Origin: Rhodoferax sp.
GTDB taxonomy: Bacteria > Pseudomonadota > Gammaproteobacteria > Burkholderiales > Burkholderiaceae_C
Length of the DNA: 32,769 bases
Direction: 5' to 3'
NCBI GenBank assembly: GCA_020048895.1
Contig: JAIFLV010000106.1
Location: 1-32,769, forward strand
Part shown: positions 20,660-22,790 of the stretch, piece after piece
Numbering within the stretch: position 1 is the stretch's first letter
How the letters are laid out: each line of letters begins with the position of its first letter
The notes under the pieces: model-generated
The model's database searches: none
What the model saw: the letters and a program-made list of their open reading frames with translations, nothing else
Told to the model about the DNA's origin: nothing
Made by a program: the position numbers and the translations under genes

Positions 20660-21814
20660 TTACACGGGTTGGTGCGCTGCCCGTTGCAGCAGCATCGCAT
20701 CGCCGTAACTGAAGAACCGGTACTCCCGCGCAATCGCTGCTTGGTACAACGCCTTGATGTGCTCGTAGCCGGCAAAGGCACTCACCAGCATCATCAGGCT
20801 GGATTTGGGCAAGTGGAAGTTGGTGATGAGCAGGTCGACCACTTGAAACTGGAATCCGGGGGTGATGAAGATGTTAGTGTCTCCCGAAAAAGGGGTCGGA
20901 GCGGGCAATGGGGTCGGATCACCGCCCGCAAAGCGGGGGTGTGCTCTGACCCCGTCTTCCGTGGCCGCATTTTCGAGAGCCCAGCTCTCCAGTGTCCGAA
21001 CAGTGGTCGTGCCTACCGCCACAACACGTCCTTTGCGTGCCCTGCATTCGGCAATCGCCTGCTGCGTGGCAATCGGCACGGTACACCACTCGCTGTGCAT
21101 CTGGTGCTCGGCCAGGTTCTCGGTCTTGACAGGCTGAAACGTCCCTGCGCCCACGTGCAGCGTCACATAAGCGCGTTGCACTCCCAGGGTGTCGAGTCGT
21201 GCCAGCAAGGCTTCATCAAAATGCAGTGCAGCGGTGGGCGCGGCGACGGCCCCCGGATGGGCCGCAAAAACGGTCTGATAGCGCTGTGCGTCCTCGGGGG
21301 AATCGGTGTGGGTGATGTAGGGCGGTAGCGGCACGTGGCCGTGGCGCTCCATCAGGGTGTAGGGGTCGTCTCCTGCATCGTTGCAGAGGACAAACCGAAA
21401 CAGCGGACCGTCGGCGTCGGGCCAGCGTCCCAGCAACGTGGCGCTCAGGCCATCGCTGTGACCCGCCGAGCACACCAGTTTCAGCGTGGCCCCCACCTCG
21501 GGCTTCTTGCTGACCCGCATGTGCGCGGCCACCTGGTTACCGCCCAGCACACGTTCGACCAGCAGTTCCACCTTGCCGCCGGTCGATTTCTCGCCAAACA
21601 GGCGCGCGTTGATGACCTTGGTGTCGTTAAACACCACCAGATCGCCCGGTTGCAGCAGCGACGGCAACTCGCGAAAAATCCGATCGATTGGTGGATTGGA
21701 GCGACCATCGAGCAAGCGGGATGCCGAGCGCTCAGACGCCGGATGCTGCGCTATCAGGTGCTCGGGCAGCGCAAAATCAAAGTCACTCAGCCTATAAGTG
21801 TCCAGACTACTCAA
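20660..21814 (-). CDS. queA: S-adenosylmethionine:tRNA ribosyltransferase-isomerase QueA, with an inserted loop
   Basis: QueA transfers the ribosyl part of S-adenosylmethionine to preQ1 in tRNA, giving epoxyqueuosine and releasing adenine and methionine. It matches E. coli QueA throughout: [90 protein letters not shown]. It has 384 residues against 356; much of the excess is residues 288-308, encoded by a REP-like palindromic element, placed between [10 protein letters not shown] and the conserved [11 protein letters not shown]. No ATG stands at the family start. TTG at 21814, overlapping the stop of the upstream binding-protein gene, fits best; GTG at 21823 and ATG at 21880 are alternatives. 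Confidence 0.94.
20892..20953. repeat. REP-like palindromic element inside queA
   Basis: The ends are GGGGTCGGAGC (20892-20902) and GCTCTGACCCC (20943-20953), an 11-bp inverted repeat with one mismatch. A second copy of the left arm, GGGGTCGGATC, lies at 20910-20920, 18 bases on. An inner stem CCCGC-AAA-GCGGG occupies 20925-20937. The outer arm GGGGTCAGAGC resembles the conserved part of REP elements moved by RAYT transposases in proteobacteria, as I remember them. No RAYT gene is in the window. The element is read through in frame by queA. Confidence 0.6.
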
Positions 21815-22790
21815 TCTTGGCACCCGAGGCTTGGACAATGCCTTTCCACTTGGCGTAGTCGGTCTTGAGCAGGTTGGCAAATGCCTCCGGCTTCATGGCC
21901 TGTGGCTCTGCACCCTGCGCCAGGATGGCGGCTTTGACATCGGCGCTGGCCAGCAACTCGTTGACCTTGGCGTTCACCGTGTTCACGATCGCAGCGGGGG
22001 TGCCAGCGGGCATGAACAGACCGTACCAGGTGGCGACATCAAAATCCTTGTAGCCGGACTCCGCCACGGTGGGGACATCGGGTATGGAGCTACTGCGTGC
22101 AATGGAGGTGACTGCCAGGGCGCGCAATTTGCCGGCCTTGATCTGGGCAATGGCAGAGGGGAGCGACGACACCAACAGGTCCACGTTGCCTGCCAGTGCA
22201 TCCATCAAGGCTGGGTTGGAACCCTTATAGGGAATATGGCGGACCTGAATGTTGGCCGCCTTCTCGAACAGGTTTCCGGCCAGATGGATGGTGGTGCCGT
22301 TACCGGGTGAGCCGTAGGTGATGGTGTCCGGCGCGGCGCGTGCGGCGTTGACCACATCGGCCAGGGTCTTGAAGCGCGAGTTGGCGGCGGTGGCAATCAC
22401 CACGGGTGTGTAGGCCACATGGGCTACCGCGACCAGGTCTTTGGTGGGGTCCCAGGGCAGGTTGCCGTACAGCCAGGGGCCGACCACCAGGTTGTCCTTT
22501 TGCCCCATCACCATGTCGTAGCCGCTGGGGGCAGCTTTTACCGCCTCGGTGATACCGATGGTCCCACCTGCACCTGCCTTGTTGTCGGGCACCACATTCC
22601 AGTGCGCAACCTCGGTCAGTTTGTTGGCGACCAGGCGCGAAAGTATGTCGGTGCCGCCGCCGGGTGGAAAGGGCACGATCAGGCGGATAGGCTTTGCGGG
22701 ATAGGGTGCTGTAGTTTGGGCGCTGGCCGTGCCGATGACTGACAGGAATACCGCGGCGGTGACAAAAAATGCAGAAAGCTTTTTGATCAT
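21807..22790 (-). CDS. Bug-family tripartite tricarboxylate transporter substrate-binding protein
   Basis: A 327-residue periplasmic solute-binding protein of the TctC/Bug family, greatly expanded in Comamonadaceae and Burkholderiales. The signal peptide ends at ASA (residue 24). The mature part opens with [23 protein letters not shown], the family hallmark, followed by [10 protein letters not shown] and later [14 protein letters not shown]. These proteins bind small carboxylates; the ligand is unknown. No TctA/TctB membrane genes are nearby, as is usual for orphan Bug proteins. The stop overlaps the likely queA start; the gene is divergent from recG. Confidence 0.93.

Follow-up and report, generated by a model that had tools for sequence, protein, structure and literature searches.

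How did an imperfect palindrome come to be translated as part of QueA in a Rhodoferax genome, and has it kept the orientation in which it arrived? We analyzed a 32,769-nucleotide stretch of DNA (hereafter the window) in which queA, encoding tRNA preQ1(34) S-adenosylmethionine ribosyltransferase-isomerase, carries such an element. The open reading frame represents a complete QueA according to a profile search (NCBIfam NF001140, 442 bits against a cut-off of 324). The features concerned are the following.

20660..21880, minus strand: queA, an open reading frame of 406 aa, listed with a TTG start (true start uncertain).
20885..20977, minus strand: expanded QueA loop, 31 codons from SWA to GDT against 6 in a plain loop (coordinates derived by hand).
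20892..20909: partial third arm and spacer adjoining the 44-bp core; GGGGTCGGAGC at 20892-20902 on the plus strand.
20910..20953: 44-bp imperfect palindrome core; its coding strand, GGGGTCAGAGCAC..GTGATCCGACCCC, is translated.
20910..20920, plus strand: core arm 1, GGGGTCGGATC, one mismatch to GGGGTCGGAGC.
20925..20937: inner stem CCCGC-AAA-GCGGG, read off the window sequence.
20943..20953, minus strand: core arm 2, GGGGTCAGAGC (GCTCTGACCCC on the plus strand).

An earlier, sequence-only reading of this DNA had described two arms with one mismatch, a repeated left arm and an inner stem, all of which were located at the positions above, as well as a frame running through the insert, which is indeed stop-free on the minus strand. 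The same reading put the addition at about 21 residues, numbered 288-308. That residues were added in frame holds true, but the loop, which we located by aligning the sequence with 1VKY and 1YY3, comprises 39 residues instead of the usual 14 (SWA plus six residues plus GDT), which amounts to 25 extra codons, and the insert lies at about residues 310-330 of the 406-aa frame, a numbering that shifts because the choice of start codon is uncertain.

The queA palindrome is real and coding. A chance origin is ruled out by the whole genome to which the window belongs (G000; 4.6 Mb in 188 contigs), where the arm pattern GGGGTCRGAGC has 24 exact matches against 1 for a reversed-pattern control; the relaxed pattern GGGGTCRGAKC has 49 against 2. 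Within the window, arm matches with at most one mismatch number 5 (1.61 expected; one shuffle was equally high). Nor is an error confined to a single assembly likely to explain it, because the carriers described below stem from separate genomes. The window's own cluster in the protein database (P0001) comprises three sequences on seven contigs. One could suppose that the hairpin has been retained because it acts as RNA within the queA transcript, given that the predicted fold around it is stable (z -3.65, with 0 of 200 shuffles equally stable). However, palindromes fold well by construction and the hairpin is absent from most compared relatives, and we consider this explanation most improbable.

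The element belongs to a dispersed family. The sequence-only reading had proposed a repeated 62-bp unit and held that a single occurrence would speak against it; the full 62-bp unit is in fact single-copy in G000, whereas the family unit is the 44-bp core. A gapped two-arm pattern returned three cores in G000, located in queA and on contigs C85 and C172. In ungapped comparisons, the C85 core is identical to the window core at 37/44 positions and a core in a related genome (G015) at 39/44; such cores elsewhere led us to reject a simple lengthening of the loop with no mobile source behind it. At 46 bp and with 17/46 positions matching the window core (ungapped), the C172 element looks like another subtype. 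By script, the fetched G000 loci hold 21 distinct palindromes (22 rows, queA contributing two nested ones), of which 14 measure 73-74 bp, five 40-46 bp and two 91-92 bp. The bases flanking the GGGGTC/GACCCC arms are often complementary yet variable (gaaat/atttc, gaatt/aattc, gaatc/gattc), as if the stem reached outward with compensating changes.

Counting GGGGTCRGAKC on both strands of 18 genomes, alongside a control pattern, gave 25 to 87 matches (controls 1 to 5) in the ten genomes G000, G008, G025, G095 and G127-G132, all with an element in queA. G135, counted as having a queA remnant, yielded 35 (control 1), and G133, G134 and G136, whose queA loops hold merely 26-bp minis or a remnant, yielded 12, 12 and 8 (controls 2, 5 and 5). 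Three genomes with an element-free queA loop (G062, G001 and G034) returned 4, 3 and 5 (controls 9, 2 and 3), and G015 returned 22 (control 5) despite its plain QueA loop. The association between arm richness and the queA insert is thus imperfect. When 101 bases at the insert end of one carrier locus (L146), that is, a partial element, were used as a BLAST query against 17 genomes, the matches listed were mostly queA itself, and outside queA consisted of partial matches alone (E 0.0016 or weaker).

What might have moved such a core? The sequence-only reading had suspected a REP element served by a RAYT transposase. G000 has three matches to PF01797, two of which appear IS200-like from their length and score. 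The third (C103, locus L138) is a REP-associated tyrosine transposase (NF047646, 80.7 bits against a cut-off of 80), and its gene (1061-1914 of the locus) is bracketed by the inverted repeats GGGGTCAGATTCCAATT ... AATTGGAATCTGACCCC, forming a TIRtron-like unit. These repeats begin with the same nine bases as the queA core (GGGGTCAGA) and share merely those nine with it. The core arm GGGGTCAG matches the terminal motif GGGGWSAS. Di Nocera et al. 2013 (PMC3733652) described under the name TIRYT a RAYT-like Y1 gene lying between inverted repeats with GGGGWSAS, copies of the terminal inverted repeat (TIR) being numerous in some species and often paired; in the part of PMC6006769 covered, the same consensus is given for a subclass 2.1 that is probably TIRYT. 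Judged by its sequence, the G000 transposase with its ends is a TIRYT arrangement carrying this motif. No GTAG tag was seen by eye in the queA core, which therefore does not qualify as a classic REP; a CGTC at 20953-20956 overlaps the arm end, and this flank differs in other queA copies. The suspected RAYT link was therefore upheld and the classic GTAG type was not, the element being of the GGGGWSAS terminal-inverted-repeat kind instead.

PF01797 matches across 20 genomes numbered 38, of which 30 were fetched, and 20 of these had an open frame of at least 185 aa. Ends of the GGGGTCAGATTCCAATT type lie on both sides of eight of the 20 (G000, G025, G127 with one base changed, G128, G130, G131, G132 and G134) and on one side of at least four (G008, G095, G100 and G133); the remaining loci have variants or none, so that at 12 of the 20 the repeat is missing from at least one side. 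We infer from the common nine-base end and from co-occurrence that the queA core was probably moved by such a RAYT.

We then compared the loop across relatives. A search found QueA in 89 of the 103 genomes of the genus, and loops were read from fetched loci, a subset of the matches selected by likeness to the query. This gave 123 distinct full-length QueA rows, including 12 from other families of the order; 12 loci without a full frame were excluded, and one of them (G025) was restored from two overlapping contigs, giving 124 rows. The plain 14-residue loop occurs in 91 of the 123 rows, and a palindrome occupies the same loop in 12 of the 124, as listed here.

Palindrome: G000, G008, G025, G095, G127 (L146), G128 (L149), G130 (L172), G131 (L173) and G132 (L186).
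Palindrome with arms altered to GGGGGG: G129 (L157).
26-bp minis: G133 (L166) and G134 (L153).

Two further loops (L150 and L174) are remnant-like and two (L159 and L167) doubtful. The arms were not seen by eye in the longer loops of other families (17-35 residues), nor in some 22-residue loops near the genus. Among the sequences examined, the inserted residues were not found in many species without the palindrome, a pattern that the sequence-only reading had named as contrary to its proposal. Its central idea, a mobile palindrome turned coding, is supported: a member of a dispersed family lies in frame in queA, and most compared relatives are without it.

Elements of the same kind occupy the same QueA loop in several lineages. 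In a quickly built tree of 122 QueA protein rows from which the loop had been removed, G000 and G025 are sisters (98, starred) within a group (99, starred) that also contains the insert-free G033 and G100. A single clade of all 12 carriers was rejected (AU p 4e-54; 51 rows, the group having been named after the tree was seen), while a clade holding L146, L149, L157 and L173 together was not (p 0.25). The plain state requires 11 changes on this tree, at least five of them forced by starred branches. Repeated gain at the queA loop is the simpler reading, although change counts cannot separate gain from loss. That blindness leaves room for one ancient queA insertion that later underwent many exact losses as well as internal replacements, as do the similar loop borders in distant lineages, the mostly equal reading phase and the apparent deletion remnants (P0010, P0011, P0037, L150 and L174). 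Under such a history, however, the losses must have restored exactly 14 residues again and again, the subtypes would still have to vary by lineage (44-bp type B, 41- and 59-bp type C, 26-bp minis), and the 11 changes would still be required. We regard it as unlikely.

The orientation of the element also varies. The queA cores of the sisters G000 and G025 are identical at 42/44 positions when one is inverted and at 27/44 when compared directly, the G000 core matching its own inverse at 28 of 44. By eye, a segment resembling the third arm sits on the opposite side of the core in G025, which has further arms, as inversion of the whole composite would give. Elements from different clades behave likewise (L146 against L172: 57/59 inverted, 40/59 direct). 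At the protein level, P0002 and P0004 are identical at 347/349 positions outside the loop, with loop borders equal but for one residue, and the P0002 core, GVRAHTRSAGGDPTP, is the exact translation of the reverse-complemented G025 core; P0002 is a single record on one contig, and three records (P0004, P0005 and P0009) are of the opposite state. A more divergent pair, P0041 and P0078 (307/352 identical outside the loop), looks like the two strands of a type-C core, judging by the resemblance of P0078 GVRSELRVDSALT to the inverted L173 translation GVRSE*RVDSALT rather than by exact DNA for the pair.

In a census of the best 120 of 8000 scored proteins, a list biased towards the query, 49 loops differed from 14 residues. 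A pattern assigned 20 to one orientation and 20 to the other; by eye, the nine unsorted loops comprised three sense-like, three deletion-remnant-like and three ordinary 22-residue loops. Such near-equal numbers are what independent insertions in either direction, without flipping in place, would produce. Against that explanation stand the P0002/P0004 pair, with almost identical sequence on both sides of opposite cores, and the extra-arm composite common to G000 and G025, inverted by eye and single-copy in G000, the genome searched for it. Independent insertion therefore seems to us decidedly improbable as the source of the opposite orientations, and we favor flipping of the queA core in place as the probable one.

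Is queA an exception? The fetched loci contain 49 palindrome rows (the queA composite counted twice), 30 of them within some open reading frame of at least 110 aa. Because DNA of this kind often contains open frames by chance, only domain-supported cases were counted as coding, which leaves 16 in-frame palindromes outside queA.

PolA: L027, L243, L266 and two in L223 (identified via the fuller locus L312).
MmeI-like methylase: L010, two in L021 and two in L253.
UvrA family: L003, L259, two in L264, and L268; the downstream part of L003 is unproved because the contig ends soon past the element.
Radical SAM N-terminal domain: L267 (G130, C11), a 73-bp palindrome at 1439-1511, in frame within a PF08497 match of 379 residues over 301 model positions.

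Elements in L016 and L026 were not counted, being located ahead of the matched domain of their frames. These sites, too, recur. By eye, the UvrA-family elements of G000 and G132 both lie ahead of an LDVVADRF block, and the MmeI-like elements of G000 and G131 both lie ahead of a GNPPFLG block. The MmeI-like frame of L021 (G000, C172) holds its two palindromes at 1466-1511 and 2730-2821, the first inside the match to an Eco57I methylase model (363-580); a further palindrome lies at C172:32912, and the two palindromes of G131 L253 lie in a frame similar to that of L021.

In PolA, a 42-bp element occupies the linker past FYEKYGFK in 10 of 17 readable genomes, the other seven being plain (G008 was unreadable, and G128 and G136 had no PolA match). 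The linker of G095 (L312, C76) carries two palindromes in opposite orientations within one protein. The polA cores of G127 and G129 match those of G130 and G131 at 40-41/42 positions when inverted and at 23/42 directly, and between G129 and the inverted G131 core a single differing base decides whether the other orientation contains a stop. Eight of eleven polA cores remain open when flipped, as do nine of ten queA cores in true phase (a count that excludes L149 and L157, which had been read in a different phase). The stops that queA L173 and polA of G127, G129 and G000 would gain if flipped count against flipping in place. Openness in both directions over 8 to 19 codons may be at chance level for GC-rich DNA, and two-way open frames permit flipping but do not prove selection.

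Two in-frame states at one site might also be taken for a programmed intragenic inverton, in which a dedicated recombinase switches QueA or PolA isoforms; intragenic inversions have already been published, as cited in the part of PMC11892184 covered. Yet the arms are short, the elements lie in unrelated housekeeping genes and some alleles gain a stop on flipping, all of which makes a programmed switch very unlikely.

We conclude that a non-autonomous mobile GGGGTC...GACCCC palindrome, probably served by a TIRYT, entered a permissive QueA loop in frame, where it probably flips and persists as ordinary residues, an explanation we hold with considerable confidence. Mechanistically, a Y1 transposase acting on a single-stranded hairpin could have inserted the element into queA, and exchange between the inverted arms, or template switching from one to the other, with breakpoints inside GGGGTC/GACCCC, could then turn it in place. 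We propose that either orientation would pass selection because the site sets a phase (GGG GTC ... ACC CCN) in which both strands of the core are frequently free of stops. The loop would simply tolerate the added residues, without an adaptive role. To our knowledge, QueA, in which the sequence-only reading saw an essential fold, is not essential in model bacteria. What that reading took for a one-off event is better described, on the evidence supporting it, as recurrent and orientation-changing; beyond it go the assignment to a family, the recurrence at one site, the similar insertions in other genes and the flipping in place, by a route that is conjectural.

A coding palindrome such as that in queA has precedents in the Rickettsia palindromic elements and in REPs that lie in frame. 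Chanin et al. 2024 and Milman et al. 2023 reportedly described intragenic invertons, coding DNA between inverted repeats that occurs in both orientations, the segments being said to be enzyme-driven. The queA palindrome resembles these in that almost identical genes carry it in opposite orientations at the same site (P0002/P0004, at the protein level only) and differs in that the invertible piece is itself a mobile palindrome. Closer in kind are the GTAG and CGTC REPs that, in the parts of PMC3733652 covered, lie within many genes, many of them for repair (uvrA, DNA polymerase I), are thought to be located in flexible linkers or loops, and struck recB at nearly the same position in two Xanthomonas species. 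The likeness lies in short palindromes within genes including uvrA and DNA polymerase I, the difference in the family, GGGGTC here; a term search of that main text returned none of queA, GGGGTC or inversion. TIRtrons and TIRYT elements share the GGGGWSAS ends, the dispersed copies and the flanked Y1 gene, whereas coding copies of this TIR class are undescribed in the parts of PMC3733652 and PMC6006769 covered. The Rickettsia palindromic elements likewise lie in frame in unrelated genes but measure about 150 bp, and the part of PMC10969869 covered does not mention flipping in place. Among the titles and abstract openings of the matches listed, with most subscription literature outside reach, we found no published palindrome in queA and no flipping coding REP.

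Insertions and inversions of one family, all in frame and in enzymes whose fold is known, here form a natural series that can be counted, from which one can ask how a transposable palindrome survives in proteins, how it flips and which loops accept it. Rickettsia belongs to another class of bacteria than the host, and the present genomes add a distant bacterial group in which 'extragenic' palindromes supply protein sequence. More tentatively, and with somewhat less than even confidence, Rhodoferax-type bacteria may harbor an orientation-blind family of coding palindromes, with both strands open at recurrent sites of housekeeping proteins (QueA, PolA, UvrA-family and MmeI-like), that flips often enough for both forms to be present in one species. 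In QueA, a parasitic repeat appears to have turned into protein sequence that the working enzyme tolerates and that can be reversed.
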